Source of the DNA: an uncultured Selenomonadales bacterium
Lineage (GTDB): Bacteria > Bacillota > Negativicutes > Selenomonadales > Selenomonadaceae
Assembly (NCBI GenBank): GCA_946183785.1
Contig: CAMHCS010000001.1
Coordinates: forward strand, 1 to 64,000
Direction: 5' to 3'
DNA: 64,000 bases
The notes below the pieces were generated by a model. It saw only the letters and a list, made by a program, of their open reading frames with translations. It made no database searches and was not told the origin of the DNA. Below are positions 3,275-39,895 of this stretch, one piece after another (the first letter of the stretch is position 1; every line of letters starts with the position of its first letter). Position numbers and translations under genes: made by a program.

Positions 3275-3308
3275 TTGATAAATTTTATACATAGACATAA
3301 TATGTCCA
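3275..3308 (+). promoter_or_regulatory. Promoter and putative operator of first WYL gene
   Basis: TTGATA (3275-3280) and TAATAT (3298-3303) are spaced by 17 bases; a second possible -10, TATAAT, lies at 3319-3324. The inverted repeat GACATA-A-TATGTC (3294-3306) covers the promoter. The 13 bases CATAATATGTCCA (3296-3308) recur in the same orientation ahead of the second WYL gene (39896-39908), which suggests an autoregulatory binding site. Confidence 0.6.
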
Positions 3309-3349
3309 TAGTGGGTTGTATAATTAGTTATAGAAAAGGAGCGTATGAT

Positions 3350-4336: not shown

Positions 4337-4439
4337 ACGCTTTTCAGGATGTCTTTGGACCGGTCTTCCAAATGTCGCTTTCAAGGCGACCTTTCTCACC
4401 TACTGTTTGCGTATAATTAAGCCAAAGGAGGTGGCTGGC

Positions 4440-6596: not shown

Positions 6597-6612
6597 GAAA
6601 GGGGCTGATGGC

Positions 6613-10468: not shown

Positions 10469-10482
10469 AGGAGGTGTCGACA

Positions 10483-20747: not shown

Positions 20748-21614
20748 ATGCATTCGTTGATTGACCTTCACATGCACAGTACGGCGTCAGACGGCAAAGA
20801 TACGCCTGCAGTGTTGCTGGAAAAGATAAAACAGCTAGGTATTCGTTGTTTTGCTCTTTCGGATCACGACACAGTTGACGGCGTTCGTGAAATGGAAGGA
20901 TTATTAAAATCGGAGACAGGCATCATTTTTATTCGAGGTATCGAGTTTTCCTGCATCTCCCGAGCGGGTAAGTGTCATATTCTCGGCTATGGTTACGACT
21001 GGGATAATCCTGCCTTTCGCGATGTATTGCAAAAAGGAGCGGATTTACGCCGTCGTAAGCTGGAACAACGGCTTGATTTTCTGCGGGACGAGTATCAAAT
21101 CGAGTTTGAAGCTGAAGATGTTGAAACCATGCGCCGAATGGGCAGTGTGGGAAAACCTCACCTTGCCGAGCTTATGGTGAAGATGGGCGTTGTCGAGTCC
21201 GCAGCCGATGCCATCAATCGTTATATTAATCACTGCCCGACGTTGGACAGCCGACTTCCGGCAGAAGCAGCTATTCCTGCAATTCGTGCCGCCGGAGGCG
21301 TTTCCGTCTGGGCTCATCCGTATGGCGGTGTAGGGGAGAAGGCATTGTCTGATTACGAGTTTCAGGCGCAGTTTAAGAGTTTACGCGACATAGGTATCCA
21401 AGGGCTTGAATGTTGTTATTCGCAGTATTCAATGGAAAAAGTCAATGCCTTGGAAGCTTATGCCAAGGATGCAGGGCTATGCGTGTCTGGAGGAAGCGAT
21501 TATCATGGACGCAAGAAATTTCCTGACTTGGGGACGCTGAACGCGGACGGAGTCTCAATCGAAAGCAGGCGGCTGTCTGTGCTTCAACAGCTCGGCATCG
21601 CTTTTGATAGATGA
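20748..21614 (+). CDS. PHP-domain phosphoesterase (YciV/RNase AM-like)
   Basis: This 288-residue protein has the PHP signatures LIDLHMHSTASDGKDTP (residues 4-20), ALSDHDTVDG (about 38-47), RGIEFSC, WAHPYGG and GGSDYHG near the C-terminus, giving the full set of His/Asp metal ligands. The family includes 5'-nucleotidases and the E. coli YciV (RNase AM) 5'-to-3' exoribonuclease, which acts on RNA ends. Placement after rtcB and before a nucleotidyltransferase fits a role in RNA-end processing, though a chromosomal housekeeping origin is also possible. The ATGA at its end overlaps a possible start of the next gene. Confidence 0.88.
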   Translation: MHSLIDLHMHSTASDGKDTPAVLLEKIKQLGIRCFALSDHDTVDGVREMEGLLKSETGIIFIRGIEFSCISRAGKCHILGYGYDWDNPAFRDVLQKGADLRRRKLEQRLDFLRDEYQIEFEAEDVETMRRMGSVGKPHLAELMVKMGVVESAADAINRYINHCPTLDSRLPAEAAIPAIRAAGGVSVWAHPYGGVGEKALSDYEFQAQFKSLRDIGIQGLECCYSQYSMEKVNALEAYAKDAGLCVSGGSDYHGRKKFPDLGTLNADGVSIESRRLSVLQQLGIAFDR

Positions 21615-21634
21615 ATGGATTTAAGGAGGCTCCC

Positions 21635-22615
21635 ATGAATTTCAAAGAAGCAATCCAGCAACCGGAATACTGCTTTTTACACGATTCGGCCATAATCCAA
21701 GGAAATCTCTGCTATTTAACTGTGTACGGTTCCTATGCTCATGGCACAAGTAATGAAAACTCTGACCTTGATCTTCGTGGTGTCGCGATAGAGTTCCAGG
21801 ATGCGCTTTTGCTTGGCAGGGGACTGAAACAATATGAGGACAAGGAAACGGATACAGTTATTTATGGCTTGCAGAAGTTTGTTTCCATTTGTCGTGGCTG
21901 TAATCCGAACGCATTAGAACTACTGGGTACACGGCCCGAGCATGTCCTTTTCATGGACTCTGCCGGAAAGCTCTTGAGGGACAATATTGATCTCTTTCTT
22001 AGCAAGAGGGCGTACCAGACCTTCGCAGGATACGCGACAAGCCAGCTTCGGCGAATCCAGAACGCGATGGCGCACGATTCCTATCCGGAGGTGGAAAAGG
22101 AACGTCATATCAAGAAGTCCATCGACAATATGATGTTTTTTGTAAAAGATGAATATGAGATAAACGAGGGAACCTTTGACTTCTCCATTGCGGATGAGGA
22201 AACTGATCCTCATTTATCGGTCTCTGTTCATGTAGATGATATGCCGTTACGAAAATTCATCGACGTAAACTCGCATATCTATACGCTGCTGCGGAATTAC
22301 GACAAGTTAAATCATCGGAACCGCAAAAAAGACGAGGCACATCTGCGCAAGCACGCGATGCATCTCGTCCGGCTCTATCTGACGGGTATCGATATTTTAC
22401 GGGGGAACGGCGTCCATACATATCGGGAAAAGGATTTGGCACTTCTACGGGAGATCCGTGCAGGAAAGATTTCGATGGAAGAGGTTTTCAAGCTGGCCGA
22501 GGATTTCGAGGTGGAGATTAAGGACGCCTATATCCATTCCAAGCTACCTGCAACGCCTGACCAGAGGGCAATCGATAATCTTCTGTTGCAGATTTACCGG
22601 GAACAGTCTTGGTAA
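21635..22615 (+). CDS. Nucleotidyltransferase of the COG3541 type
   Basis: This 326-residue protein has a polymerase-beta-type nucleotidyltransferase core: VYGSYAHGTSNENSDLDLRG (G-S then D-x-D) near residue 35, followed by a helical domain with NPNALELLGTRPEH. AAGGAGG lies 5 bases before ATG 21635; an in-frame ATG at 21611 overlaps the previous stop and is an alternative. Members of this group are found near RtcB and other RNA-repair genes in bacteria, and a role in modifying RNA or nucleotide ends is plausible. It is the last gene of the plus-strand cluster. Confidence 0.85.
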   Translation: MNFKEAIQQPEYCFLHDSAIIQGNLCYLTVYGSYAHGTSNENSDLDLRGVAIEFQDALLLGRGLKQYEDKETDTVIYGLQKFVSICRGCNPNALELLGTRPEHVLFMDSAGKLLRDNIDLFLSKRAYQTFAGYATSQLRRIQNAMAHDSYPEVEKERHIKKSIDNMMFFVKDEYEINEGTFDFSIADEETDPHLSVSVHVDDMPLRKFIDVNSHIYTLLRNYDKLNHRNRKKDEAHLRKHAMHLVRLYLTGIDILRGNGVHTYREKDLALLREIRAGKISMEEVFKLAEDFEVEIKDAYIHSKLPATPDQRAIDNLLLQIYREQSW

Positions 22616-22925: not shown

Positions 22926-25900
22926 ATGCTAAACAGAGAGATCCCTTTCAGGCCCAAACTGGAAGGGGATTTTAGAATAAGATTTTACAATGCTGTTTCA
23001 TGCATTAACGAAGAGACCTCTCCGTTAGAGATTGAAAGTATTTCTAATAATGAGATTGCTTGGGTGGAAGAAGAATGTACTTATAACCTAGAACAAAGAA
23101 AAAAATATAGGGCAATCTGGATGCTGTTTCGCGATCTTACGCGTGCCTCATGGAAGGCTTGTTATCGCGACAGTATTTTATATATGAGTTTACCTAGTTT
23201 AAGTAATACAGGCATACATCACCCATCCTCGCCGGAAGTTAAAAAACTCCTGAGAAGTTGGATGAGCGACAGTAGACATGAACGGCTTGTATCTTATACT
23301 GATTTTATCCAACGGATGGAACGCAAGAATTCTAATAAACATGATATAAGTGAATTGATTGCTGATGGAGCAGAGTTGGCTTCTCGTTTGGAGCGAGCAC
23401 ATAAAGGAGAAATTGAGTTAGCCGAAGCTGTCAGACCTTATCTACAACTCGTTACAGAGAACGAAAGAGATGAGTTCACTGGTATAAGAACTTCTGATAT
23501 ATGGCGATATTTTCGGCTGACATGGTCTACCCCTGCGGAGACCACGCCGGGAAGAACAATGCAGTATTTAATTCGGGATGCAGCACATCCAATGCATGCT
23601 ATTATGGGGATTGCGTCTCTTGAGAACTGCGCAGTGCAGATTACATGTAGAGATGACCATATTGGATGGAATCAAAAGGCCTTTATTGATAGGATAACCA
23701 TGCTCGGAGCAACTGAAGCCAGGAAGGAATTCAAAAAGCTTCTTCAGTATATTGAACTTGGTATATCTGGAATAGACTATTCTGCGTTATGCACAAAGGC
23801 GACAGCTAATAATCCGACCGATGAGGATATTCAGAAACTGTTCGGTTTTGCGAATAGCGCAGAGCAAAGACGTCAAGAACTCCTAAAAGCATCACAAGAA
23901 GACGGCATTAAAGACGATGAGAAAAGCGAGCTTGGAAGTATATCCAAAGAGACAGAGGATGCTCTATACAGAAGGAAAAGGGCTGACCAGCTTGCTCGTC
24001 TTCTTATGGCCAAAAAGGCACTTTTAGAGGTCTATCAGTCCAAGTCTTTTAATGAAATATGGGGTGATTTTTGTAGAAGTGAAAATGGTACTTCGGCGAT
24101 TAGAAGTGCCCTTATTGCACAGAAAACTCAGCATATCGGTTCAAGCATGATGGAATTGAATGTTTGCGGTGCAATCCCACCTTACAATGAAATACTTGGA
24201 GGAAAACTGGTAGCCTTATTAGCGACATCCCCTCAGGTCATTCACGATTATAAAGAAAGATACTCTAATAGAGCCAGCATGATTGCCAGTCGACTGAAAG
24301 GGGAGGATGTATTTAGGCCAGCGGATTTGGTCTATATTGGAACAACCTCTTTGTATTATGTCGGCTCAAGTCAATACAATAGGCTTAAGATTCCTGGCAA
24401 GATTTTTAAGTCAGATTTTGATATTGTATGGAAAAAACTGGGCACGACCTATGGCTTCGGTACCATGCATATTAGTAAGGCTACTACACTTAGCTTGACT
24501 GAGGCAACAAGCGACGGGTTTAACCGTATTAATCATGTGTTTGGAGAAGGCGCAAGTCCTAAAATGCGGTTGCTTACAATGTCGATCAGAGAACTTTTGG
24601 AAACGACAAACGAAGATTCACAGGATTTCTCTAAGCATGCTATGTCTCGCATTGTTTACGGAGCTTGCCTTGCCACTAATACATTAGATTATTTAATGGG
24701 AAAAGATACCGTGCCTAAATACTATACCAATGTCAAACATTATCAGGATGGCACAAAGAAAATCATAGATTATTGGACAACCAGGTGGCTTTCTAGTAGG
24801 TTGAATTATGCGCCAATATATGAACGAATACGTGGCTTTGATAAGAAAAGTCTCTTAGTAGGAAGTCAAATTAATGATGGTGAGGAGTGGACATTTAAAA
24901 AGTTAAAGGAGGTATTGCATATGCCTGTAAACGATAAGAAAAAAGTAGGGTTGCAATTCATACGTGATTTCTATCGAGGTAGCAGTGCATATGCTGACCA
25001 CATAGATGAAGAACTTTTGACTCATATTCACTTGTCAACAAGGCTTGACGAGACAATAATTAAAGCTGCGAGAGATGGTAAAGATGTAGTGTTAACAGGA
25101 AATCCTGGTGACGGGAAAACACACATTATTAGAATGCTTAAAACAAAACTTGAGCAACTCCCAACACCAGCAATTATAGAATTAGATGCGAGCACATTAT
25201 CAGATGAGCATATTCATCAAGCATGGAACCAAGCTAGGAAAAAACATGCACCATTTGTTATTGCCATTAATGCAGCGGTTCTTCATTCAGTGTATATCGC
25301 GTTCCCGAAGTTTGAACCTGTTAAAGAAGCATATAACCAGATGATTAACTCAGTAGTATTTCATGAAGAGGAAGGCGAGTCAAGTAATATAGTTGTGTTT
25401 GACTTAAGTAAACGAGAGGTGCTCACAGAAGAAATACTTAGACAGGCTATTTCAAAGATGACGGCAGAGGATCATTACAAGGAATGTAAGAAATGTCCGT
25501 TATTTGATTCTTGCGTTGTAAACAATAATCGCAAATTATTAAATAATCCTCTTTTTCAAAAGCGAGTATGCATTATTTTGCAGCGAGTTTCACTACAAGG
25601 TCATCATGCAACCCTTCGTGAACTCCAGAGTTTTATCGCATATCTCATATTTGGTAATAGGAATTGTAAACAACTTAACCAAACTGCAGGGAACAGCCAA
25701 TTTGATTTAGCAAATCTTATCTATTCAGGTAAGGGAAGGATGTTTAATGCAATCAAATACGCCTTTGACCCGATTAATGTTTCACATCCTCTCTGGGATG
25801 AGCGGATTCTTCTCAACGCTATAACTCCGGAATCATGGATTGAAGGTTATAAAGTCCCTGCTGAGGCGATTGCTTATGATAATGAAGCATTATTCAACCT

Positions 25901-26516
25901 TCGGAAACGTCAGTTCTTTTTCTTTAATCAGGATGGGGATAAACTACTATCGATTTTAGACGATGATGCAACACGTTATCAGAATTTTTTGAATCAGGAC
26001 AATAGCAAAATCGTTAAGGAACTTATCTCTAAGCTGAATTATTTCTTCGGAAATACTAATGGATCGAACTCCAAACTTCAGATATGGTCTGGGCATCGAT
26101 ATAATAACGAGCCGAGAAAGGTGCTTATTTCTGTTGGAACCTTAAAGAAAAGTGAATTCAGCATTGGTAGACCATCTCTGCTTAAGAGTATGCAGGTCGG
26201 CATCGATATGACTTCTAACTATATTAGGTTAGAGAAAAAGGATTCACCTGAAATATTCCTTAAGGTTGATTATGAAATGTTCCTTTTGCTAAATGAAGCT
26301 GAGCGAGGTGTTCCTGTCCTTTTCATGGAATCGGATTTAGTGAAAAAGGTATGGCGTTTTATTGAGCAACTTCAATCATTTAGGGAAATTGGGGATGAGG
26401 AAACCATTGAAGTCAGGTTACTGGATGTTCAGAATAAAAGGACTGTTATTATTTCTGTAGATAGAGAGGACAAAAAGTATTCGGATATTGATAGTGAACG
26501 TGGTCAGGGGGCTTGA
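22926..26516 (+). CDS. DUF4338 (DruA-like) domain fused to P-loop ATPase
   Basis: This 1196-residue protein has two parts. Residues about 190-560 look like DUF4338, the domain of the Druantia protein DruA: WRYFRLTWSTPAETTPGR, RDDHIGW, MELNVCGAIPPYNEILGGKL and TTSLYYVGSSQYNRL. Residues about 680-1190 form an ATPase with Walker A GNPGDGKT (725-732), a hydrophobic strand FVIAINAAVL as possible sensor, and a cysteine cluster C854-x2-C857-x5-C863. The latter part resembles the DptF ATPase of phosphorothioate-linked restriction in layout only. Genes 2-4 of the cassette follow with 1-4-base overlaps or a 28-base gap. The fusion suggests target recognition coupled to ATP hydrolysis. Base composition is AT-richer than that of the RtcB operon. 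Confidence 0.75.
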   Translation: MLNREIPFRPKLEGDFRIRFYNAVSCINEETSPLEIESISNNEIAWVEEECTYNLEQRKKYRAIWMLFRDLTRASWKACYRDSILYMSLPSLSNTGIHHPSSPEVKKLLRSWMSDSRHERLVSYTDFIQRMERKNSNKHDISELIADGAELASRLERAHKGEIELAEAVRPYLQLVTENERDEFTGIRTSDIWRYFRLTWSTPAETTPGRTMQYLIRDAAHPMHAIMGIASLENCAVQITCRDDHIGWNQKAFIDRITMLGATEARKEFKKLLQYIELGISGIDYSALCTKATANNPTDEDIQKLFGFANSAEQRRQELLKASQEDGIKDDEKSELGSISKETEDALYRRKRADQLARLLMAKKALLEVYQSKSFNEIWGDFCRSENGTSAIRSALIAQKTQHIGSSMMELNVCGAIPPYNEILGGKLVALLATSPQVIHDYKERYSNRASMIASRLKGEDVFRPADLVYIGTTSLYYVGSSQYNRLKIPGKIFKSDFDIVWKKLGTTYGFGTMHISKATTLSLTEATSDGFNRINHVFGEGASPKMRLLTMSIRELLETTNEDSQDFSKHAMSRIVYGACLATNTLDYLMGKDTVPKYYTNVKHYQDGTKKIIDYWTTRWLSSRLNYAPIYERIRGFDKKSLLVGSQINDGEEWTFKKLKEVLHMPVNDKKKVGLQFIRDFYRGSSAYADHIDEELLTHIHLSTRLDETIIKAARDGKDVVLTGNPGDGKTHIIRMLKTKLEQLPTPAIIELDASTLSDEHIHQAWNQARKKHAPFVIAINAAVLHSVYIAFPKFEPVKEAYNQMINSVVFHEEEGESSNIVVFDLSKREVLTEEILRQAISKMTAEDHYKECKKCPLFDSCVVNNNRKLLNNPLFQKRVCIILQRVSLQGHHATLRELQSFIAYLIFGNRNCKQLNQTAGNSQFDLANLIYSGKGRMFNAIKYAFDPINVSHPLWDERILLNAITPESWIEGYKVPAEAIAYDNEALFNLRKRQFFFFNQDGDKLLSILDDDATRYQNFLNQDNSKIVKELISKLNYFFGNTNGSNSKLQIWSGHRYNNEPRKVLISVGTLKKSEFSIGRPSLLKSMQVGIDMTSNYIRLEKKDSPEIFLKVDYEMFLLLNEAERGVPVLFMESDLVKKVWRFIEQLQSFREIGDEETIEVRLLDVQNKRTVIISVDREDKKYSDIDSERGQGA

Positions 26517-28015
26517 TGTATATGGAGCAGATCTATCTCAAAATGGCACGACGAGAGGTTGACAACAAATACGTTGGCTTTCAACCAAACAGCGGATCAG
26601 TTAAACCAGTACATATTGCGTCTGGCGCTCAGCGGTGTATTTATGGAGCGTACTATCGAAGCAAAAGCATAAAAGAGATAGCACTCGTTTCTGACTCAAA
26701 AGGTATGATTCCACCGGGCAACGAAGTGGAGACGATTTATGGTAAGCTTATCGAGGATAAGGTAATTGAGGATAGTATTCCCCTTAATTCAGTTGATTCA
26801 ATGAGAAATAATATGCAGCGCCTCTTGTCGGTTGATAAGGGCGTCTTTGTAGTAAGCGGACTAAAGGATAGCATGATTTCTTATTCTGCTGGATCAAAGT
26901 ATTTTTTAACGAGTGGTACAGGCGCACCTTATGAACGTGGGGGCGAGTTTATAGGCAGCCTTATAATAGGCTTTTGTCCTAAACTAGCTAAATATATTAA
27001 AGACCTTCTTGATAAAGCTAATGATCCCATAACTTTACTATTTGAACCACTTTTAGATGATGATGCAATGGAGGCATTTTCTGATCGGGAACAGTACAAG
27101 GATATTCCTGCCTTTATTGATCCAAATGATTTTACATCGTTGTTTCTCGACGGAATAAAAAATGGCGGTACCTGTTTATTGGAAAATCTACGCAATCATC
27201 CAAATCCACTAACACAGTTAAGGCTTTTTAACTTTTTCTGCATATTCAGTTTGATAAGGTATATGACGCTGCTTGAGGCCTTTTATTGTGGAGAAAATAT
27301 AAGACCTATCCTTCTTGATTTTAGCGGTGCAAGTCCAAGCAATAGTAGTGTTGCTCGTGCATCAGAAATGTCTTATACACAAATATATAAGTCAATCAAC
27401 AGATTCTATGCATGGGGTTATGCAAATTGGCTTAAAGATAAAAAATTTAGCAAAAAAGAATTACTCCAGTCAGATACTCCTGTTTATGAAAGCGGAAGAA
27501 CGGTTTCGAAGGCGAATAAAGAAGAATTAGATGTACTGTGGCAACTGGCTAAGGAACGAGCACATAATCTTAAAGGTGATAAAATATATTTGGCCTTTGG
27601 AGAAACTATGTACGATATGCTTGCCTTGGAAGCGTCGTCCCACCCTGTTACATATCTGCGTGCATTAGGGAATCTTTCAGGTATTCTATACCCGCCTGAT
27701 TCGTTCCATCCTAATAAGAGATTTGCTGTTTCACAGGATATTGTTGAAATGCTTCTTCGGTGCTGCATTAAGCCCAATGAAATGATTAGCGGGATGGATA
27801 TTAGACAGCGTCTTTGGGACAGATTTGGGATTATAATTGGGGGAAGTCAGCTTGAGATGCAAATATTACAGAGTAGCGGAATGATTCTTCAAATTGATGA
27901 GGATGCTCTGGAAAAGAATTTCTCTTCCTTTGCGGCGATTCTCGAGTCGATGGATTTTGCTGAGCAGATGGCAGATGGCATTTTACAAATTGGATTAGGA
28001 GGTGCTGGAAAATGA
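26516..28015 (+). CDS. Unknown middle protein of the cassette (about 499 aa)
   Basis: I do not recognise this protein. Its ATG at 26516 overlaps the last base of the upstream stop (TGATG), and its own stop overlaps the next ATG by 4 bases, so all three large proteins are translated together. The sequence is soluble and mixed alpha/beta, with GSAGSKYFL-like Gly/Ser stretches (SYSAGSKYFLTSGTGAPYERG), an Ile/Leu-rich centre, and a winged-helix-like C-terminus (ISGMDIRQRLWDRFGI). Its position between the ATPase and the FtsK-like protein is that of DptG/DndG, but the sequence alone does not prove that relation. Confidence 0.7.
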   Translation: MYMEQIYLKMARREVDNKYVGFQPNSGSVKPVHIASGAQRCIYGAYYRSKSIKEIALVSDSKGMIPPGNEVETIYGKLIEDKVIEDSIPLNSVDSMRNNMQRLLSVDKGVFVVSGLKDSMISYSAGSKYFLTSGTGAPYERGGEFIGSLIIGFCPKLAKYIKDLLDKANDPITLLFEPLLDDDAMEAFSDREQYKDIPAFIDPNDFTSLFLDGIKNGGTCLLENLRNHPNPLTQLRLFNFFCIFSLIRYMTLLEAFYCGENIRPILLDFSGASPSNSSVARASEMSYTQIYKSINRFYAWGYANWLKDKKFSKKELLQSDTPVYESGRTVSKANKEELDVLWQLAKERAHNLKGDKIYLAFGETMYDMLALEASSHPVTYLRALGNLSGILYPPDSFHPNKRFAVSQDIVEMLLRCCIKPNEMISGMDIRQRLWDRFGIIIGGSQLEMQILQSSGMILQIDEDALEKNFSSFAAILESMDFAEQMADGILQIGLGGAGK

Positions 28016-31000
28016 AGAATAAGCAAGAATTAGTGAGTGCTCTTCTTCACAAGCATCTTTCTGAAATTAAAGTTGGAATTATTATTAAAGGGATAGATGA
28101 CATCTCTCCTGAAGAAATCGTTAAAGCATTAGCTTCAGAGGAAATGCATTTATATGCTGCGGCAATTGGCTATAATGCCGTTCGTGAACGCTCTACAAAA
28201 TTATATGATATAACAGATTCCATCGAGAAGGCTGTCCTATGGCGTAGTATGCCCGAATGTGCTGGACGAATTGTTGTTTTCATTAGAAATGATACTGATA
28301 AACTGCATTCTCTGGCTGAGTTTGACATTGTTACGACGAGAGATGTAGCACGTTTTATGATTGAAGAACAGATTCATAGTGAAAACAATGCACCGACAAA
28401 TGATTTCTGGTCTGCTTTACGGACTACTTCAGATTATTATACTTTTGATGTATTGCATGAGTTTGTTTCTGCTGTTGTGGCAAGCGATAATCTTACGGAG
28501 GCAATTCCGTCAAATATGTGGAGGCTTAATTTACTACAGGACAGTGATATTCTTAGTACAAAAAGCAACCCTGAAGAACGTCTTGTAAAGAATCGTGATT
28601 TGATTTTTGCTATCGGCCAGTTGAGCGAGGACTCAAGAAAAAAATTAAGTCGTTCTCTTGTCAGGGCAAATGAAAAAGATAGAGAGCACCTTCAGAAGAT
28701 ATACTACAGTCTTCAGACATTTTACAAATATGGAACTCGTGACATATTAAAGGAACTTGATCTTAAAACTGTTCAGAAGCTGTTCTCCGCAACCCAAAAG
28801 GTGGAAAAGAAGAAAGAAAGACCAATAATTGATAATCCGGATGATTCTGAAGGGATTGACACTACTCCTATAAAGCCCAAAGAATTGGCTCATATCATTT
28901 CTAATGCTGTCGTATTTGGTGATGAGGAGTCGCAGGAAAACATTCAAGAACTTCTTAGAGAATTGATTAAGCATTATGATACGGAAACAGAAGAAAATAA
29001 TGACTCCATTGCGACGATTGGAGGTGTTTTTGAAGATCGTAACATTGTATTAGAACAACATCAAACCGACCTGCGTAAGCTGGTTGGTATGTTTTGTAGT
29101 TCGTCTGTATGGGGCGGCATAATGGAGACCGAAGAGACAGTTCTCAAGGATGCCATTTCAGCAGATATTAATTCGATTCAAGCTTTCGCACCCGAGAAGA
29201 AAGAGTCGGTTGTTTCTTTTGTCGGAGGTGTTGATGGAAATCAACCGTTGTTCGATTTTATTGTCCAATTTGATTCTTTATTCGATAACAAGGGCTTGGA
29301 GACGGCAGAGAGGTTCTCGCCAATTATCAGAAACTTAAAAGATAAACGGGAAAAGCTATTATTAAGCCTTGATATGATATTGTATTATCCAGTGCTTTTG
29401 TTTGGTGCATCAGAGGAGAATAGGAAACATCTTATTGAATATATCGAAGCATGGGAACAACTATATCATGCTCTTTGCATAAATGAGCCTGCTATGCGAC
29501 AGATTAGTGCGGCGGGTACTAGCTTTATTGCCAGAGCAATTTTACTGTTAGATGTTTTGTACATAAAAACCCCAAAGGAATGGAAAGCAATAATGTTACC
29601 TCTTCATCCTATTTACCTTTGGCGATACTATGAGGTGTTTCGGACCTTGCCAAAGAAGAAGGCTACATTTAGCGATGAAGACAAGGAAGCCTTGTCAAAG
29701 GTTCTCTCGCAACTACCACAAGTGTTAAGTTTTGTGGTGGCAAACACAATAGTTACCGCTTCCACGGAGGATAGGGTATTACCTTGCTCCGGTAGCATCG
29801 AAATGCTGCCAACCTTTGAAAATAAGACTAACCGTTATCTTGGTAATGATGGAACGGAATCAATAGCAGAAATATTGACTCGTTGGATTGGATTTGCTCC
29901 TTACACAAGAAATGAGATTAGAGTATGTTCAATTGATGCACCAGATTTAATAGGGAATATACGTCAGATAAAAAGCTTCATGGATGTTAATTCGGTTAAG
30001 CGAGTGGTCTATGATGTTTATTTGACGCATAATCAAAATGGCAATACCGAACTGTCGAAACTGGATTATTCTGGAAAGGATTATGAGATCGGTGAGTGCA
30101 TTCGTAATGACCGTATTTCCATTAGTATTCGTAATGCAAAATCCTCATCAGAGGTTAAAGAGGCACTTGAAAATCGACCAGTGCATGTTGCTTTTTATTT
30201 CGATCAGTCCTCGTATTCCATTGAGTTTGGTCCCAATAGTCGCAATTTGTACATTAATCCGCTAGTTATAACATATGATTACGAATTTGATGAGGCTACC
30301 CACAAAGGGAGTATTTTCCCTTCCTCTGAAATGGATTCTGGCCTTATTGGGGACTATCATAAGATTATGAGATCTGCGGATATCATAAGTAATAATATGA
30401 ATCCACGAACGACATATAATGGGAATGCAGATATGACTGCCGTTGTTTCAACGATTAGTGATAAGCAGGTGCAATGGCTCGTTGTTGCCGATAGAGATAC
30501 TAATAATTATCAGCCAGAAGAATCTATTCCTATTGGCGAGATGCAGTACGATAAACGAATGGTTAATGTTTGGGCGGCGTCTGATTCACGAATCATAACG
30601 CAATATTTAACATTGTTGCGGGCGTATAATTTATATCCAAAGCAAGAGACGCTTATCAAAATACTACGTCAATTTGGTCATATTGCATCAAATGGTTTAA
30701 TTAGTATTCCAAAATTTGGGGCTGATGCGCAGGCAGTGGATAACAAGAGAAAGGGATTGATTGGAACTTTATTGGTTGCCTCATGGTATATAAAGAAGCA
30801 CGAAGATGCACTTGTAGCATCACTTGACGATGATAAGGCGCGGTTATGGCTTCAGAATAGTAAATATGGGAATGAGCGTGCTGATCTCGTTGGGCTTTAC
30901 TATGATGAGGAATTTAACACATTACATATTGAGCCTATTGAAGTAAAAACGAGAGATGAGTCACCGGATGCAATAATAACAAAGGATGATGATAGTTCAA

Positions 31001-32751
31001 AATCGTATAGCATTACAGGGCATGCAGCTGACCAGATTGCATCGATGATTGATATTCTACGTGAAATCTTTACTGTCGGTGACAATCAGATAGATATGTT
31101 CACATCAGCTCGAAGAGAAGTCCTGAAATATCAGATAGTAACTGAATGCTTCCGAAATGTTCATGATCCTAATTGGCAGAAGAAATGGTGTCTGCTATTG
31201 AAAAAGGCCTTCAATAACGAGGGCGAGCGTAGTTTAAATATCGTTGTTTCTGGTATGCTTATGCATATCAAACTTAATGAGACTACTGGTGGTGAGAATA
31301 AATCGTGTAAAAATCCTAATTTTGACGATTGCCAAATTGATTATTGGAAGTTAACTTCCAAAGAAATACAACGTGATATTCTTGGTGAAGGAACTCTTAA
31401 AAGCAATGCATTTGCACCTGATTTTGATAATTCAGATGTGGAAGCCTCAAGAGGTGTCGAATCGGAAGAGGCAATAATTGATACTGATGTAGATTCTTCT
31501 GTACAAACTGAAATGAAGGATCAGGAGAAAACGTCAGTCAATATAAAATCCACGGCAACCCCTGTTGCTTCATCAATGGTTTCCACGGATAAAGAATCAT
31601 ATAAGGAGAAGGAAGAACTCGTTGATATCTCTCTAAAAGAAAACTGTAATGGTGTAAGTCATAAGGAAATTGTTCAGTTAGTTAAGGATTTCAAACTTGC
31701 TTGTGAAGATTATCATGTTGCTTTAAAGGATTGTAATTCAGAGGATACTGTTGTTGGACCAAGCGTAATCCGGCTTAAATTCAGACTGGGGAGAGGCCAA
31801 GCACTTCAGGGACTATCAAGTCATCTTGAGGATATTGGAAGAGAAATGAAACGTACTGGAGTAATTATTCAGCATGTCCCAAACTCGGATGAATTACTCT
31901 TGGATGTTCCTCGCTTAAAAAGAGAAAAAGTCCTTTTTAAGGATGTTATTGCGTCCTTACCAAAAGTGACCTCGCCAGAACAACTTTATTTTCCACTTGG
32001 AAGAACTCCGAATGGAAAGGATTTGATTAAAGACCTTGGACAGATGCCGCATATGCTTGTTGGTGGGAGTACGGGATCTGGAAAGTCTGTATTTCTTTTT
32101 ACAATGCTTGCGGCTATGTTGATGACTCATCCCAGCCCGGATAATCTTCAATTAATTCTCTCCTCTTCCAAAATGGAGGATTTTAGCCATTTTGAGAGAT
32201 TACCACATCTCTATTCCGGGAATGTTATTTTTGATGCCATTGAAGCTACCCGTGTGATTAAAGATGTAATTTTTGAGGAGTCTGAGCGTAGAGGAAGACT
32301 ACTGGCTGAAGCAAGAGTTGCAAATATCATTGAATACAATAAAGTGACTTCAAAAAAAATGGCTCCTATCGTTGTGGTAATCGATGAATTTGCTGATCTC
32401 GCGGATCAACTTGAAACCAAGAGAGAGCAGAATGCATTCTATAATCCGGTTCAGCGCATTGCTCAACATGGTAGAAGCAGAGGGATTCATTTGGTCATCT
32501 GTACACAAAGACCTGAAGCAAAACTCGTACCTTCAACAACAAAGGCCCAATTAAATGGGCGTGTTGCCCTTCGTGTCAACGATGGAATCTCGTCTAGGAT
32601 GGTTATTGAAGCACCCGACGCACAATACCTCCAAAAGCATGGAGATATGATCTATAAGAATGGTGACGAAATTGAAAGGGCACAGGGCTATCTAATAGAA
32701 CTTTCGGAGTTAGATTCCATTGTAAGTGATGTGATTAACGGAAAATACTAA
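28012..32751 (+). CDS. FtsK/SpoIIIE-type translocase with PD-(D/E)XK nuclease motif
   Basis: This 1579-residue protein has an unrecognised N-terminal 900 residues. A nuclease-like motif follows at about 915-980 (KGLIGTLLVASW, ERADLVGLYY with D958, PIEVKT with E977 and K979), the D...E-x-K pattern of PD-(D/E)XK enzymes. After an acidic, Ser/Thr-rich linker (about 1130-1210) come an FtsK alpha/beta-like domain (VGPSVIRLKFRLGRGQALQG, about 1247-1310) and the motor: Walker A GGSTGSGKS (1351-1359), Walker B IVVVIDEFAD (1453-1462) and HGRSRGIHLVICTQRPE. It has no membrane segments, unlike cell-division FtsK. DptH (DndH) of Dnd restriction systems is also a very large protein with such a motor. The likely role is DNA translocation coupled to cleavage. 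Confidence 0.82.
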   Translation: MKNKQELVSALLHKHLSEIKVGIIIKGIDDISPEEIVKALASEEMHLYAAAIGYNAVRERSTKLYDITDSIEKAVLWRSMPECAGRIVVFIRNDTDKLHSLAEFDIVTTRDVARFMIEEQIHSENNAPTNDFWSALRTTSDYYTFDVLHEFVSAVVASDNLTEAIPSNMWRLNLLQDSDILSTKSNPEERLVKNRDLIFAIGQLSEDSRKKLSRSLVRANEKDREHLQKIYYSLQTFYKYGTRDILKELDLKTVQKLFSATQKVEKKKERPIIDNPDDSEGIDTTPIKPKELAHIISNAVVFGDEESQENIQELLRELIKHYDTETEENNDSIATIGGVFEDRNIVLEQHQTDLRKLVGMFCSSSVWGGIMETEETVLKDAISADINSIQAFAPEKKESVVSFVGGVDGNQPLFDFIVQFDSLFDNKGLETAERFSPIIRNLKDKREKLLLSLDMILYYPVLLFGASEENRKHLIEYIEAWEQLYHALCINEPAMRQISAAGTSFIARAILLLDVLYIKTPKEWKAIMLPLHPIYLWRYYEVFRTLPKKKATFSDEDKEALSKVLSQLPQVLSFVVANTIVTASTEDRVLPCSGSIEMLPTFENKTNRYLGNDGTESIAEILTRWIGFAPYTRNEIRVCSIDAPDLIGNIRQIKSFMDVNSVKRVVYDVYLTHNQNGNTELSKLDYSGKDYEIGECIRNDRISISIRNAKSSSEVKEALENRPVHVAFYFDQSSYSIEFGPNSRNLYINPLVITYDYEFDEATHKGSIFPSSEMDSGLIGDYHKIMRSADIISNNMNPRTTYNGNADMTAVVSTISDKQVQWLVVADRDTNNYQPEESIPIGEMQYDKRMVNVWAASDSRIITQYLTLLRAYNLYPKQETLIKILRQFGHIASNGLISIPKFGADAQAVDNKRKGLIGTLLVASWYIKKHEDALVASLDDDKARLWLQNSKYGNERADLVGLYYDEEFNTLHIEPIEVKTRDESPDAIITKDDDSSKSYSITGHAADQIASMIDILREIFTVGDNQIDMFTSARREVLKYQIVTECFRNVHDPNWQKKWCLLLKKAFNNEGERSLNIVVSGMLMHIKLNETTGGENKSCKNPNFDDCQIDYWKLTSKEIQRDILGEGTLKSNAFAPDFDNSDVEASRGVESEEAIIDTDVDSSVQTEMKDQEKTSVNIKSTATPVASSMVSTDKESYKEKEELVDISLKENCNGVSHKEIVQLVKDFKLACEDYHVALKDCNSEDTVVGPSVIRLKFRLGRGQALQGLSSHLEDIGREMKRTGVIIQHVPNSDELLLDVPRLKREKVLFKDVIASLPKVTSPEQLYFPLGRTPNGKDLIKDLGQMPHMLVGGSTGSGKSVFLFTMLAAMLMTHPSPDNLQLILSSSKMEDFSHFERLPHLYSGNVIFDAIEATRVIKDVIFEESERRGRLLAEARVANIIEYNKVTSKKMAPIVVVIDEFADLADQLETKREQNAFYNPVQRIAQHGRSRGIHLVICTQRPEAKLVPSTTKAQLNGRVALRVNDGISSRMVIEAPDAQYLQKHGDMIYKNGDEIERAQGYLIELSELDSIVSDVINGKY

Positions 32752-32779
32752 CGTTATTAGCACGAAGGAGCAGAGAGGA

Positions 32780-33463
32780 TTGAAGCAGACTTTCAGGCGA
32801 GGCATATTCAAAGAAGAACTCAAGAATAGGTTTTTAAGTCTTGTTGAAGTTGATGGAAAAGATGCTCTCTGCTATATTCCTGCTTCATGTAGACTCAGTA
32901 ATTTTATCGATTTGACTGGGAGGGAGGTTTTTCTTTTACCGGTTGTCTCTCCCAATAGTAGGACAAAATATTCCATATACGCTTTATATGAAAGTAATAA
33001 TTATATTCTCCTAAATTTGTCCAAGGTTAATGAAACGATAGAAAAAAATATCCGAAGTAGGCGATTTTCTTTTTTGGGAAAAAGAATTCATATAAGAAAA
33101 GAGCATACGGTCAATGGGTATAAGAGTGATCTGTTTATTGATGATACGAAAACAGTGGTCGAGATAAAGAGTATATTGTCTTTCACTAAGGACAAAGAGG
33201 CACAGTTTCCATCGGTGTATTCACAACGAGCGATTGAGCAAATGAGAAAACTCAGTGTTTTATTAGATAAAGGTTTCAACGTTTGCTATATTTTTGTTGC
33301 GCTAAATCCTAAAAGCAAACGATTGTCAATAAATGAGGACATCAAAGAATACAAAGATTTGTTTAATGTTTGTGTGAAAAAAGGAATGAAAGTAAAAGGC
33401 GTGTCGCTTAAACTGATCGATGGAGAACCGGTTATCATTTCTAGTCTGCCCATTATATTGTAA
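32780..33463 (+). CDS. SfsA-like protein (PD-(D/E)XK fold)
   Basis: This 227-residue protein reads as an SfsA family member: FLSLVEVDGKDALCYIPASC with RLSNFIDLTGREVFLLP (OB-like N-terminus), then YKSDLFIDDTKTVVEIKSI holding D...E-x-K (about residues 119-130), SVYSQRAIEQMRKL, and VCYIFVALN. SfsA proteins bind DNA and have a restriction-endonuclease-like fold; their cellular role is poorly known. Here it is 28 bases after the FtsK-like gene, with a TTG start at 32780 behind GAAGGAG, so it is probably the fourth cassette gene. The family's usual P-N-T-G-R motif near residue 37 is changed to ASCRLS, suggesting divergence. Confidence 0.75.
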   Translation: MKQTFRRGIFKEELKNRFLSLVEVDGKDALCYIPASCRLSNFIDLTGREVFLLPVVSPNSRTKYSIYALYESNNYILLNLSKVNETIEKNIRSRRFSFLGKRIHIRKEHTVNGYKSDLFIDDTKTVVEIKSILSFTKDKEAQFPSVYSQRAIEQMRKLSVLLDKGFNVCYIFVALNPKSKRLSINEDIKEYKDLFNVCVKKGMKVKGVSLKLIDGEPVIISSLPIIL

Positions 33464-33536: not shown

Positions 33537-33643
33537 AAGTGTACTTTTTTGAGACACTTGGAGGATATCTTAGAAAAGCTGTTTTACGGCTCGTTTTTCA
33601 TTCAAAATCGTCCCTAAATTAAATTTGACTTTTTTAAGACACT
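33537..33643. repeat. res-like direct repeats ahead of the serine recombinase
   Basis: ACTTTTTTGAGACACT (33543-33558) recurs as ACTTTTTTAAGACACT (33628-33643), 15 of 16 bases alike and 85 bases apart. The first copy is also part of an inverted repeat AAGTGT (33537-33542) / ACACTT (33554-33559). This layout suits resolvase/invertase subsites upstream of the recombinase gene. No gene is seen in 33464-33672. Confidence 0.5.
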
Positions 33644-33672
33644 CCTATATTATCGAATTGGGAGGTGTCATT

Positions 33673-34305
33673 ATGGCGAAGGAGATTTGGGGCTATGCTC
33701 GTGTTTCGACAAAGGAACAGAACCTAGAACGACAACTAGTAGAACTGCGTCAATACGTCCCCAAGGAAGATAATATTTTATCGGATAAGCAATCGGGGAA
33801 AGATTTCAACCGAACTGCATATCAGAAATTAAAGTCTATGGCACGTAGCGGTGATGAAATCTACGTCAAGAATATATATCGGCTGGGCCGTAACAAGCAG
33901 ATGATCAAGGACGAGCTTCAGTATTTCAAGGACCACGGTATCCACGTCCATATCCTTAGCTTTCCTCAGACAATGGTCAACGTCGAGGATGAGCGTCAAA
34001 AGGGTGTCATGGAGCTTGTAACTAATCTTTTGATTGAAGTCTTCAGCTTCATTGCCGAGGAAGAACGTAATAATATTCGTACTCGACAGGCCGAAGGCAT
34101 AGCTGTATGGCGTAATACTGGCAAAACAAAAACTGGACGACCATATGGCCGTCCTCGTACCCAGCTTCCCAGTAACTGGAATCATATATATAACATCTGG
34201 AAGGAGAAGCATATAAAATCAAAAGAAGCATGGCGGCTGCTGAATATATCTAAGAATACGTTTTATCGGCTTGTCCGTGAACATGAAGAGGGGAGAGGGG
34301 CTTGA
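33673..34305 (+). CDS. Small serine recombinase (resolvase/invertase type)
   Basis: This 210-residue protein starts at ATG 33673, behind GGGAGG. The resolvase domain has IWGYARVSTKEQNLERQL with the catalytic Ser12, then YRLGRNKQMIKDEL (Arg residues of the active site) and EEERNNIRTRQAEGI, the E-helix region. The C-terminus (KSKEAWRLLNISKNTFYRLV) is a helix-turn-helix. Its length fits Tn3-type resolvases, Hin-type invertases or plasmid resolvases rather than large serine integrases. The repeat pair just upstream is a good candidate for its binding site. No matching transposase lies nearby, so it is probably a remnant of, or dedicated to, a local inversion or resolution site. Confidence 0.9.
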   Translation: MAKEIWGYARVSTKEQNLERQLVELRQYVPKEDNILSDKQSGKDFNRTAYQKLKSMARSGDEIYVKNIYRLGRNKQMIKDELQYFKDHGIHVHILSFPQTMVNVEDERQKGVMELVTNLLIEVFSFIAEEERNNIRTRQAEGIAVWRNTGKTKTGRPYGRPRTQLPSNWNHIYNIWKEKHIKSKEAWRLLNISKNTFYRLVREHEEGRGA

Positions 34306-35301: not shown

Positions 35302-35598
35302 TTATACTATCCGCCTCCTTTCTGATTCCTTCTGCAATCGCTTGATTTCTTGCTCTACGATTTTTTCGTAAATTGCTTCCTTCTGTGTCAAGTCTTCGGT
35401 AGAGAGTGCTTCCAATAAAAGCTCCATAAATCCCTTCTCCGGCTCGTCCGACTTGTTTATCTCTGCCAGATCCTCCGCTTCTTCCATCGTCCACGGTTCC
35501 GGCCCAAGTTTCGCTGCCGTCTCGATGATTTCCTGCGGGTCCGTTGACGTCCTCATGATATTCATTAAATCGTTCTCCTGCTTTGTCATTCGCTTCAT
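35302..35598 (-). CDS. Small charged helical protein, type B copy 2
   Basis: This 98-residue protein is read from ATG 35598 (a longer frame starts at 35616). It is closely related along its length to the product of 35927-36220: STDPQEIIETAAKLGPEPWT, EEAEDLAEI, EKGFMELLLEAL and TQKEAIYEKIVEQE recur with small changes. It is very rich in Glu and Lys and predicted to be all-helical, with no membrane segment. It is last of five related small genes behind the second PcfJ-Sel1 gene. Function is unknown. Confidence 0.75.
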   Translation of the reverse strand: MKRMTKQENDLMNIMRTSTDPQEIIETAAKLGPEPWTMEEAEDLAEINKSDEPEKGFMELLLEALSTEDLTQKEAIYEKIVEQEIKRLQKESERRRIV

Positions 35599-35926: not shown

Positions 35927-36220
35927 CTAGGACGCCGGACGACGTAACTCCGCCAGCACGCGCTTTTTCTCTTGCTCTACGATCTTCGCGTAAATGGCTT
36001 CCTTCTGTGTCGAGTTTTCTGTAGCGTGGGCTTCCCGTAAGAGCTCCGTAAATCCCTTCTCCGTCTCGCCCAGCTTGTGCATTTCCACTATCTCCATTGC
36101 TTCTTCCATCGTTACTGGGGCCATTTTCAGTTTCGCCGCCATTTCGATAATCTCCTGCGGATTGGTAGAAGTCCCCAAAATCTCTCGCCACTTTTTCTCT
36201 TGATCTGTCAGCCGCCTCAT
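35927..36220 (-). CDS. Small charged helical protein, type B copy 1
   Basis: This 97-residue paralogue of 35302-35598 contains STNPQEIIEMAAKLKMAPVT, EEAMEIVEM, EKGFTELLREAHATENSTQK and EAIYAKIVEQEKKR. The start codon ATG 36220 is preceded by a G-rich ribosome site. Pairs of type A and type B genes alternate here, pointing to tandem duplication of a two-gene unit. Confidence 0.75.
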   Translation of the reverse strand: MRRLTDQEKKWREILGTSTNPQEIIEMAAKLKMAPVTMEEAMEIVEMHKLGETEKGFTELLREAHATENSTQKEAIYAKIVEQEKKRVLAELRRPAS

Positions 36221-36684: not shown

Positions 36685-38832
36685 TCATTCAATCGTGCAA
36701 TTCTCATCCTCGGCCATACGCTGCCTCATTTTATACAAACCCTGTAAAATCTCGAAGTCCCTTTCTGTCATCTTGCTAGAGATAAACTTATTTAACTTGT
36801 CTATTTCCCATTTCGCTTCATCGTCGCCTTGTTGGACAGCCTTGGTCAGCCACTCCATTGCTTTTTTATGATTTTGCTGAAAAGCTTTACCGCGCCAATA
36901 CATCATTCCCAATGTCCGCTGTGCCTCAGCGTTCCCATTGGCCGCTGCTTCATAAATGCGTTCCCCGTCAGGTAATACATACATCAGGTATTCTCGCTCA
37001 TCTGCGAAGTTTATCCAAGGAGGCGGGGAAACATTGTATACCGCTTCAGACAGTAAGCGTATTCCTAATCGGTGATAGTAATTCGTTGGTAATTGGTCTT
37101 CGGACATAGATAGGAGTTCTGCTACGTCCATCTCTTCAAGAGATTTGCAATATGGAATAGCCTCAACAGCAGCCGTTTCTAGGTCGATGAGTTCAGAATC
37201 ATTGGGTAGATGTAGATGATCCGTTTCAATGTGGAGATTATTTAATTTTGCCCAATATCGGCACACGAGTAGCAGATTATCTGTCAATCGTTGGTTTCGT
37301 GCGCCGAGTGCTCGAACAATATCTTGCTGATTCTGAATTTCAATGCAGGCAACATATTTTTCTTTAAAACGAACTGCGACAATAATAGAATGTCGGTCTA
37401 GCATGTCATCTCGATATGTTGCAGCAAAATTGCGCATTGTTAGCCCAACATGGCGCAGATTTCGTGTATCGTGCATCAAATGGAACTCATAGCCATTGAC
37501 GATGCACTCAAAAGCCAGAATAGAGGAATCGTAGTAGATTCGTACATTCTTCAAGCCTTTAGAATAAGCTTCCTTTTCCCAACAGATTTGGTCATGAACG
37601 TATTGTGTAAGCCCATCCTGTAACAGTATTTTCTTTATATCTTCGGATAGTTGCTGCTCATAGAGATCAAAAGTCAGGATGGTTTCCCATTGTCCTTCTT
37701 TTGCACCGTCAGAGATTGATACACGGTATAGCCAACGTAGGAAGGCCTTTTCTCCTTTTTGTGAAAGCATCCATTGGCAAAAATGGTCCATGGCGTGCCA
37801 TTCCTTTTGGAAATCGCCATAGTCTCGTTCTAATCGCCGTGTTTCCGTATCAAAATAAAACTTCTTCAGGTATAAAAACGTTATACATTCGTCCAGATAA
37901 AAGAATTTCTGCATCAAATTAACATCTTTAACGCCCCACTGCTGAAAAAGCATATACCAAATGATAGAGTAGGGGTTAAAGGTATAGGCCTTGCGTAAGC
38001 TTTTCGGTGGTTTGATGTCTAAATACTTACAGATTTTCCGATAATTGTCTTTGAGATCATAAGGGAACGCTTCATCAAAAGCATTCTTGATATATTCGCG
38101 CAGGAAATTCTTGAGGAACACAATATTAAGGTCAAATGGACGCTCGACATAGGCAACCAGTTTTTCGCCTTTATCCATCTGGCTAAGAATGCTGGGCTTA
38201 ATGCCTGTTATCAACCGCGTACTTTCCCGAAGAGCTTCCATCGCCGTATCTGCAACAATTTCGGGGATTCTTATTCCAGTTTCGTCTATCCATGAAGTCG
38301 CCGGAAGCATGCGGCCTTTGGTTATCGGGGTAATATGATACCTTCTTTTCCCTATATCTGCGGAAATCGAAAAACTGTGCCAATGCCGAAACTTTCCAGT
38401 TTCCAAGTATTTTCTGTGATGAATTTCGGCTACATCGCATGCAATATTAATAGGACCGTTCGGCTCTCTCTGGAATATCCTCCAGCGGAACGGAATTAAG
38501 ATGCCTTCCGTGCAGTAATCATGGTAGCTTGATTCCCAATATAAGCTTAACAAGTGATTTCTGCTGTCAGTGTGGAATCCTTCATTTGCTATCAAGCCCT
38601 CGAATACACAACCGTCGATCGAAACCACACGATTGTATTGAATTTCTACTACATCCTCTATTCTATGATGTTTCGGACAAAGGACGGAGTACCCTTGAAA
38701 GTGTTCAGAATCTGGATTGCCCAAGACAAGGAAATACGGCAGCTTTTCAATATCTTGATGGACATAGTCCTCCGACAGGCATTGAACCCATTTGTCTCCG
38801 GTAACATCGTATTGAAATGCAATGGACAGCAT
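36685..38832 (-). CDS. PcfJ-like protein with C-terminal Sel1 repeats, copy 2
   Basis: This 715-residue paralogue of the plus-strand protein at 4440-6596 (718 residues) has the N-terminal LCPKHHRIEDV block, the central YLDIKPPKSLRKAYTFNPYS block, RPFDLNIVFLKNFL and a PcfJ-like region (HLMHDTRNLRHVGLTMRNF, then ACIEIQNQQDIVRALGARNQR). The C-terminus has Sel1-type repeats (NAEAQRTLGMMYWRG, KAMEWLTKAVQQGDDEAKWE). Its central block is nearer to the 536-residue protein at 6613-8223 than to its Sel1-tailed homologue. It lies 34 bases after the second WYL gene. Function is unknown. Confidence 0.78.
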   Translation of the reverse strand: MLSIAFQYDVTGDKWVQCLSEDYVHQDIEKLPYFLVLGNPDSEHFQGYSVLCPKHHRIEDVVEIQYNRVVSIDGCVFEGLIANEGFHTDSRNHLLSLYWESSYHDYCTEGILIPFRWRIFQREPNGPINIACDVAEIHHRKYLETGKFRHWHSFSISADIGKRRYHITPITKGRMLPATSWIDETGIRIPEIVADTAMEALRESTRLITGIKPSILSQMDKGEKLVAYVERPFDLNIVFLKNFLREYIKNAFDEAFPYDLKDNYRKICKYLDIKPPKSLRKAYTFNPYSIIWYMLFQQWGVKDVNLMQKFFYLDECITFLYLKKFYFDTETRRLERDYGDFQKEWHAMDHFCQWMLSQKGEKAFLRWLYRVSISDGAKEGQWETILTFDLYEQQLSEDIKKILLQDGLTQYVHDQICWEKEAYSKGLKNVRIYYDSSILAFECIVNGYEFHLMHDTRNLRHVGLTMRNFAATYRDDMLDRHSIIVAVRFKEKYVACIEIQNQQDIVRALGARNQRLTDNLLLVCRYWAKLNNLHIETDHLHLPNDSELIDLETAAVEAIPYCKSLEEMDVAELLSMSEDQLPTNYYHRLGIRLLSEAVYNVSPPPWINFADEREYLMYVLPDGERIYEAAANGNAEAQRTLGMMYWRGKAFQQNHKKAMEWLTKAVQQGDDEAKWEIDKLNKFISSKMTERDFEILQGLYKMRQRMAEDENCTIE

Positions 38833-38866
38833 TTTCCTCGCCCCTTTAAGAGATAACTGTGTGAAG

Positions 38867-39865
38867 CTAATCTAACTTGCAATGAGTCTCTTTCATTCTA
38901 TTAATCTCTTGTAGCCATTCTTTTCGCAACTCACTCGGCTCTAGAACTTCCACCTGACTCCCTTGGCTAAGTAACCATATCAGGATTCCATCGCCGTAGA
39001 CCTCTGCTGTAACATCATATACGCCTTTCGAGATTTCTTTCGCGCTGGCCGTCGGAAGCCGATCCAAAACATGCTCGATAGATATGCCGAAGAATCTGAA
39101 CCGGATTTTCTGTAGTTTCCCGTTATACATGAACTGTACTCGTTTACGAAATTCACCGTCGTGAAATTTACCGCTGTAGGGGATACTGAAAGAGTTTCCT
39201 GTTTCCTTCAATTCTTTAATTCGGTCAATACGATAGGTGCGATAAACCTCGCCCTCGTCGACATCCTCATAAAGAGCAATCACATAGAAGTAGAACTCTG
39301 AGAATAGGATAGATAACGGCTTCGCCTCGCGCCAATGGGTCGTTCCATCCTTCCGGGTGTAAAGAAAGCGTATTTCACGGTGACGGCTGATGGCCAAAGA
39401 CAGATTCCACAGAGCGGCCAGGAGGGGCTTCCCGTGCTGAAGGGGGACGTATACGGCATATTCACTGCGTATGATGTCCTCAACAATTTTCCGGTCATTA
39501 GGAGACGCTTGTGTAAGTATTTTATCAATCAGCTGCTTCATCTCAGCCTTCGGGAGGGCCCGGCTCTCCAACAATATCTTGCAGAGCGCCAATGCCTCCT
39601 GATTCGTCAGCCATTCTCTTTCAAAACGAGATAGGCGATAGGCATTTGCGGCACGATCATATTGGACAGTCGCATCTGGCCTCGATGTCTGTTTGTCAGC
39701 CAAGTAATTTCGGATACCATCAAAGTCCCTCTGAATCGTTTTCTCACCGACTCCATAAGCCTTGGCTAATTCTCTCTTGTTCAGAACCTCACCTCGATTC
39801 AACCGCTCAAAGATATCCAACATCCGTAGTCCTCGATCTCCCTTGTAATCCAGTAATGACTCCAT
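38867..39865 (-). CDS. WYL-domain transcriptional regulator, copy 2
   Basis: This 332-residue protein is nearly collinear and mostly identical with the regulator at 3350-4336, from LLDYKGDRGLRMLDIFERLN to the C-terminus. It has the same winged helix (GVGEKTIQRDFDGIRNYL) and WYL region (FLYTRKDGTTHWREAKPLS, FYFYVIALYEDVDEGEVYRT). ATG 39865 is chosen by alignment with copy 1 and GGAG 5 bases upstream; TTG 39874 is possible. It is transcribed away from the integrase, and the same 13-base motif as for copy 1 lies 30 bases ahead of its start. Confidence 0.9.
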   Translation of the reverse strand: MESLLDYKGDRGLRMLDIFERLNRGEVLNKRELAKAYGVGEKTIQRDFDGIRNYLADKQTSRPDATVQYDRAANAYRLSRFEREWLTNQEALALCKILLESRALPKAEMKQLIDKILTQASPNDRKIVEDIIRSEYAVYVPLQHGKPLLAALWNLSLAISRHREIRFLYTRKDGTTHWREAKPLSILFSEFYFYVIALYEDVDEGEVYRTYRIDRIKELKETGNSFSIPYSGKFHDGEFRKRVQFMYNGKLQKIRFRFFGISIEHVLDRLPTASAKEISKGVYDVTAEVYGDGILIWLLSQGSQVEVLEPSELRKEWLQEINRMKETHCKLD

Positions 39866-39895
39866 CGGCTCCAATTCCTCGCTTTCGTTTTTACT

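Follow-up and report, generated by a model that had tools for sequence, protein, structure and literature searches.

A DruA-linked gene cassette of the DndFGH/SspFGH group with an SfsA-like partner in an uncultured Selenomonadales bacterium: a candidate phosphorothioate-independent restriction system

The DNA studied here is a stretch of 64,000 nucleotides (hereafter, the window) from an uncultured Selenomonadales bacterium (GenBank assembly GCA_946183785.1, contig CAMHCS010000001.1, positions 1 to 64,000), in which an earlier note had pointed out a cassette of four genes, here called DruA-F, G, H and SfsA. All four open reading frames (ORFs) were confirmed on the + strand (Table 1); the DruA-F, G and H genes overlap their neighbours by up to 4 bases, and the SfsA gene starts 28 bases past the end of the H gene. 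The parts that the note had named, namely a DruA-like domain, a P-loop domain with a Cys cluster, a PD-(D/E)XK nuclease, an FtsK domain and an SfsA-like protein, were confirmed by domain searches and residue conservation. We consider it fairly probable that the cassette encodes a phosphorothioate (PT)-independent restriction complex of the DndFGH/SspFGH group, with an obligate DruA-F-G-H core and SfsA as an accessory. This reading draws on homologies, intact catalytic motifs (P-loop, restriction endonuclease (REase), FtsK and SfsA), linkage, co-divergence and the lack of PT genes; the defence function and the biochemistry of DruA are predicted from sequence.

Table 1. Positions of the cassette genes, their domains and an adjacent gene in the window
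Feature	Position	Strand	Remarks
DruA-F gene	22926-26516	+	1196 aa
DruA/DUF4338 domain	22926..24893	+	residues about 1-650, N-terminal to the DndF part
DndF/SspF-type P-loop domain	24894..26516	+	PADLOC SspF 1.1e-20
G gene	26513-28015	+	500 aa, DndG/SspG-like, predicted DNA-binding subunit
H gene	28012-32751	+	1579 aa, DndH-like
H N-terminal and central part (DndH-like)	28012..31401	+	methyltransferase fold, PD-(D/E)XK
FtsK-type translocase domain of H	31402..32751	+	FtsK_SpoIIIE 2.2e-32
SfsA gene	32780-33463	+	227 aa, cassette-type SfsA nuclease
Serine resolvase/invertase-type recombinase	33625..34305	+	Resolvase 1.1e-24

The DruA domain is matched by Pfam DruA (111 bits, 6.6e-32) and, over residues 44-637, by the PADLOC model DruA1 (397 bits, 5.2e-119), and it has conserved motifs, among them DIWRYFR, PGR, RD..IGW and CGA.PPYN..GGKL. 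The F part has a Walker A motif at residues 725-732, D754, N782 replacing the Walker B Asp, a Cys cluster and a C-terminal alpha+beta portion. Among 28 fused homologues, G725, K731 and D754 (the invariant Asp ending strand 2 of the P-loop domain) are found in 28 and N782 in 27. DndF has been defined by such P-loop oddities, an Asn for the Walker B Asp and a terminal Asp on strand 2 (Rakesh et al., 2024; PMC10853773), and F has both of them. The AlphaFold model of DruA-F has a mean predicted local distance difference test score (pLDDT) of 84.6, with AAA/STAND ATPases as structural matches of its P-loop part (best Z 9.2); in a viral structure library, the matches were uncharacterised giant-virus (Faunusvirus) and phage proteins with no named function. 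DUF4338-like stretches are also encoded on many viral-collection contigs (L205-L284). The DUF4338 domain has been described as GNAT-like (PMC10853773). Mom-like DNA modification by DruA is unsupported by sequence, because the DruA and phage Mu Mom profiles show no similarity (comparison probability 0.1%).

For the G protein of the window the SspG match was borderline, while SspG models match 18 of the 34 members of its family (best 2.7e-13). A bona fide SspABC-SspFGH locus of another genome (L285), called by the SspA, SspB, SspC, SspF, SspG and SspH models, served as an intermediate; since the cassette profiles of F and G match its proteins at 2.8e-33 and 2e-21, respectively, homology of F to SspF and of G to SspG is established. 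The H protein carries a methyltransferase fold, then PD-(D/E)XK, then FtsK. In the AlphaFold model of its residues 1-1130 (mean pLDDT 82.0), the methyltransferase-fold domain (residues about 604-860) aligns to an S-adenosylmethionine methyltransferase with Z 13.8 and a root-mean-square deviation of 3.5 A over 176 residues, the aligned part of H being 609-858. D958 of the nuclease motif is present in 38 of 38 homologues, and E977 and K979 in 37 of 38. The FtsK/SpoIIIE domain scored 113 bits at residues 1312-1501, and H matched the E. coli FtsK profile at 1.2e-37 from residue 1248 and PDB FtsK chains at 1e-39. No solved structure gave a convincing sequence match to G or to residues 1-1130 of H. 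The order of these three domains agrees with that described for DndH, an inactive methyltransferase-fold domain followed by REase and HerA/FtsK; the published description also places an inactive SF2 helicase domain and beta-sandwiches at the N-terminus (PMC10853773). The resemblance to DptF-DptG-DptH, which had been suggested from the gene order, holds good, with F, G and H in tandem and F and G homologous to SspF and SspG. Of the models for MADS, mad7 is matched by a few G proteins and mad8 by the H protein of the window, which hints at a relationship between the FGH module and part of MADS.

A scan of GTDB genomes anchored on DruA gave 79 further loci, a count that leaves out DndFGH systems without DruA. 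In 63 of these loci, from 12 phyla including archaea, DruA has FGH genes as neighbours, and some of the remaining 16 are cut by contig ends; the co-occurrence is far beyond chance. Anaerotruncus colihominis DSM 17241 (L057) and Muricomes intestini (L042) are cultured carriers. One clade of the DruA tree has the DruA-F fusion, and another has separate, adjacent DruA and F genes. Pairwise distances of DruA, F, G, H and the FtsK domain are correlated with r of 0.96-0.97 (27 loci), and those of a 200-column subsample of DruA with those of F at r 0.95. A whole-H query of 398 genomes was swamped by housekeeping FtsK and gave only three informative near-full-length matches beyond the window. In an H-anchored sample of 338 genomes, every full-length H homologue was part of a DruA cassette. 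Because of this linkage and co-divergence, and because full-length H was accompanied by DruA throughout that sample, the obligate unit is DruA-F-G-H. Lack of conserved co-occurrence, which by the earlier note would have refuted its proposal, was not observed: DruA, F, G and H are conserved together, with SfsA mainly in Bacillota. Free swapping of the FtsK domain of H, described for DndH generally, was not observed either, the domain co-diverging with H at 0.97. Candidatus Frackibacter has a second DruA (L035:1326-3377) behind F-G-H-SfsA, in addition to the leading one. On the plasmid records L191, L194, L195, L196 and L197, the NCBI name is "Druantia anti-phage system protein DruA", and most of these genes adjoin FGH genes.

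The co-divergence bears on an explanation in which DruA would serve DndF only as a back-up effector (e.g., a GNAT-type protein acetyltransferase poisoning the cell if restriction fails), and discrimination would be made by F, G and H alone. Such a role has been proposed for N-terminal DndF fusions, where DUF4338 appears alongside HEPN, NERD and kinase fusions (PMC10853773). However, those fusions are described as occasional, whereas the linkage of DruA occurs in two separate architectures and its distances parallel those of FGH (r 0.96-0.97); furthermore, Druantia type I draws its DruA from this family, and one copy is common to both arms in haloarchaea, as described below. We regard a back-up effector as unlikely.

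No protein of the PAPS-reductase family, which includes the DndC/SspD type, was found in the genome of the window, while 14 of 14 control genomes had one, and DndB was likewise absent from this genome. DndC was above the cut-off in 2 of 50 carrier genomes, and neither SspB, SspC nor DndC was present among the 1143 ORFs of the loci. Since PT genes are missing from the genome, the loci and nearly all carriers, the cassette is, as judged from gene content, PT-independent. The earlier remark that the window has no dnd modification genes can therefore be widened to a genome without a PT-modification enzyme and to homologues that are not beside dnd genes. Together with the SspF/SspG homology and the DndH domain order, this supports the proposal that the cassette stands alone and links a Druantia-type protein with restriction of the Dpt type.

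Domain searches detected no modification gene in the cassette and one N6/N4 methylase in the genome of the window. Both results would suit an arrangement in which the cassette makes no modification and reads a mark from a housekeeping or unlinked enzyme (e.g., a host methyltransferase), with DruA as the reader, and a phage protein, Druad1, is reviewed as evading type I Druantia by promoting site-specific methylation (PMC12904381). But no recurring methylase neighbour was seen in the neighbourhoods examined, and the carriers are distributed among 12 phyla, with no known mark common to them; such reading of an unlinked mark is, in our judgement, improbable.

DruE1 had no match in the genome of the window, and the absence of a Druantia DruE helicase, noted before for the window, is thus genome-wide. 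Only six of the 70 loci with FGH were seen to have DruE in the vicinity, and all six are from haloarchaea; in these, one DruA leads F-G-H, and the opposite strand nearby encodes a DruE1 helicase (1566 bits and a length of about 1800 aa in the two loci tested). A member of this DruA family comes after DruE in three Paenibacillaceae. The simplest reading, we infer, is one recognition module with two outputs, a DruE arm and an FGH arm. In haloarchaea, both arms, that of Druantia type I and that of FGH, have a single DruA in common, which suggests that DruA is the specificity-setting module. GNAT-based DNA marking has been proposed in a different HerA/FtsK-linked system (PMC12839542). It is conceivable, if doubtful, that DruA acts as an interchangeable module for self-marking or sensing, i.e., a GNAT-fold DNA-modifying enzyme replacing the PT mark and pairing with DruE or the DndFGH arm; the two arms would have one DruA in common in haloarchaea, and Bacillota would have added the SfsA nuclease. 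If this is true, Druantia type I and stand-alone DndFGH would be united as two outputs of one recognition module. The role of DruA within Druantia type I is not stated in the accessible literature. As a third recurrent context of DruA, a GHKL-type ATPase gene directly precedes it, with or without DruE nearby, in L101, L102, L103, L107, L110, L113, L114, L115 and L197; the ATPase of L102 is MzaB-like.

The SfsA protein of the window is matched by Pfam SfsA (1.2e-13) and SfsA_N (1.3e-7), and its score against TIGR00230 is 66.9 bits, below the cut-off of 126.45 bits. It consists of OB and PD-(D/E)XK domains, and the active-site residues D117, E128 and K130 are invariant in 32 of 32 sequences. Cassette copies fall into a single clade, and long branches with full support set it apart from 13 housekeeping SfsA proteins. 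The genome of the window also encodes a second SfsA, a housekeeping one (186 bits). SfsA is present in 27 of the 30 complete Bacillota cassettes with flanks; outside Bacillota, it was found only in one metagenome-assembled genome (MAG) of Treponema and one of Bacteroidota which may be misbinned. Its placement in 35 loci is close behind H (27), farther behind (2), upstream of DruA (4), on the opposite strand (1) and, at a Druantia I locus, following DruA (1). SfsA distances are correlated with DruA distances at r 0.82 and 0.70 within the cassette lineages and at 0.37 across both, and some nearest SfsA relatives cross the two lineages. Our reading is that SfsA is an accessory which fits both cassette lineages and is exchanged between them. 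All copies above 250 bits in a 398-genome sample are in such cassettes, although those copies were part of the model; a second SfsA-anchored genome search returned nearly the same genomes as the first and added little, and in a separate viral-contig scan two of three cassette-type copies sit in full cassettes.

In two contexts, cassette-type SfsA was recorded without FGH. On the viral-collection contig L190 (L190:9965-10654) it has an N6/N4 DNA methylase as a neighbour, together with two large serine recombinases, and DruA and FGH are absent from the 10 kb examined. In Paenibacillus brevis (L077:9785-12569), full-length DruE, DruA and cassette-type SfsA are arranged in this order without FGH, and this SfsA groups with that of a Paenibacillus cassette.

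That Bacillota islands carry the SfsA gene as a mere passenger, outside the system, is rather unlikely, though less so than the explanations above. The weaker co-divergence with the core (overall r about 0.3), the absence outside Bacillota (the two MAGs apart) and the L190 copy away from any cassette would be expected of a passenger. A passenger would not so readily account for a single dedicated clade whose active site is intact, for the presence of SfsA in 27 of 30 complete Bacillota cassettes, for its occurrence in several positions (downstream, upstream, on the opposite strand and beside DruA in the Druantia I locus), or for the finding of every copy above 250 bits in cassettes, with the caveat on the model given above.

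Returning to the preferred reading, a PT-independent complex with a DruA-F-G-H core, DruA fused to F would take over the self/non-self or licensing role which PT modification has in Dnd/Ssp. Sensing of nucleotide or DNA by DruA-F would load the G-H complex onto invading DNA, G would bind the DNA, and the FtsK motor of H would pump it as the PD-(D/E)XK domain of H cuts. The SfsA paralogue would be an accessory nuclease, added and exchanged by Bacillota cassettes, which probably processes or destroys the cut nucleic acid. SspFGH damages DNA without a PT mark, and SspFGH/DndFGH is toxic when the mark is missing (PMC8092258); stand-alone DndFGH has been proposed as a counter-invader system, and how it spares the host without a PT mark has been raised as a question (PMC10853773). 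Several points weigh against our reading. Rakesh et al. regard DUF4338 as an occasional co-effector and not as the discriminator (PMC10853773). Because non-Bacillota cassettes other than the two MAGs have no SfsA, the core presumably works without it. Foldseek and VIA-align results for the DruA-F model were dominated by AAA/STAND matches to the P-loop and were uninformative on the DruA fold. The first 600 residues of H had no known-fold match, the methyltransferase-fold domain having dominated the structure list.

With regard to the genomic setting, the GC content of the cassette is about 0.385, below the 0.43-0.45 immediately to its left, in agreement with the AT-rich composition noticed before. 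Two other statements about the locus were not supported. The cassette had been described as bounded by two recombinase genes, but both of those found (33625, the serine resolvase, and 40846, a tyrosine integrase) are on its right side, and none was present among the scanned ORFs of the left flank. A promoter of its own is unsupported because promoter-like matches were no commoner than in shuffles (32 observed vs 33.1 +/- 7.0). The serine resolvase gene is probably context, outside the system. Behind it, there is a 164-base direct repeat (35327-35490 and 35949-36112, 77% identical). An att-like duplicate of the transfer-messenger RNA end was looked for within the window and not found. A WYL-domain regulator and a PcfJ-like protein are encoded on both sides of the cassette, at 3275 and 6562 (+) and at 38867 and 36685 (-), respectively, within the stretches 3275-8223 and 36685-39874. 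Upstream of the cassette are genes for an RtcB-type RNA ligase (10465-11685) and an RlaP RNA-repair nucleotidyltransferase (21611-22615).

The FtsK domain, the nearby recombinases and the presence on plasmids could also be taken to mean that the cassette serves a mobile element, in segregation, transfer or island stability, instead of defence. This is very unlikely, as restriction has been demonstrated for a homologous module of three genes (PMC8092258), H has a nuclease motif, and no constant mobile-element partner was seen.

Both the DUF4338-DndF fusion and stand-alone DndFGH have been described by Rakesh, Aravind and Krishnan (2024; PMC10853773). In a literature search that left most subscription papers outside, SfsA combined with DndFGH, DptH or DUF4338 was not found, and DUF4338 was mentioned in just three papers. 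SfsA as a partner, the sharing of DruA with Druantia and the obligate nature of the DruA-FGH core appear to be undescribed. DruA is constant in one system and a component of the other, and natural loci with a single copy allow a direct genetic test of both. The annotation "Druantia DruA" often marks a different system, more DruA proteins having been found with FGH than with DruE in the survey.

Among known systems, DndFGH with an N-terminal DUF4338 (PMC10853773) has the same three-gene module, fusion and stand-alone reading, and the same domain order of H where testable. Its description differs in listing DUF4338 as one of several occasional co-effectors and in mentioning neither SfsA nor DruA; the obligate DruA-FGH core, the unfused DruA gene and the DruA shared with DruE are not in it. 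SspABCD-SspFGH (Wang et al., 2021; PMC8092258) resembles the cassette in the sequence homology of F to SspF and of G to SspG and in the FtsK domain and size of H, whereas the cassette has no PT-modification gene and has DruA and, in Bacillota, SfsA. The SfsA DNA/RNA nuclease (TIGR00230; PDB 4dap, 4da2) shares OB and PD-(D/E)XK domains and the active-site residues with cassette SfsA, which is under the TIGR00230 cut-off, forms a separate clade and stands beside a housekeeping copy in the genome. Druantia type I lacks a counterpart here for its DruE helicase, while the DUF4338 protein of the cassette is homologous to type I DruA over nearly its full length.

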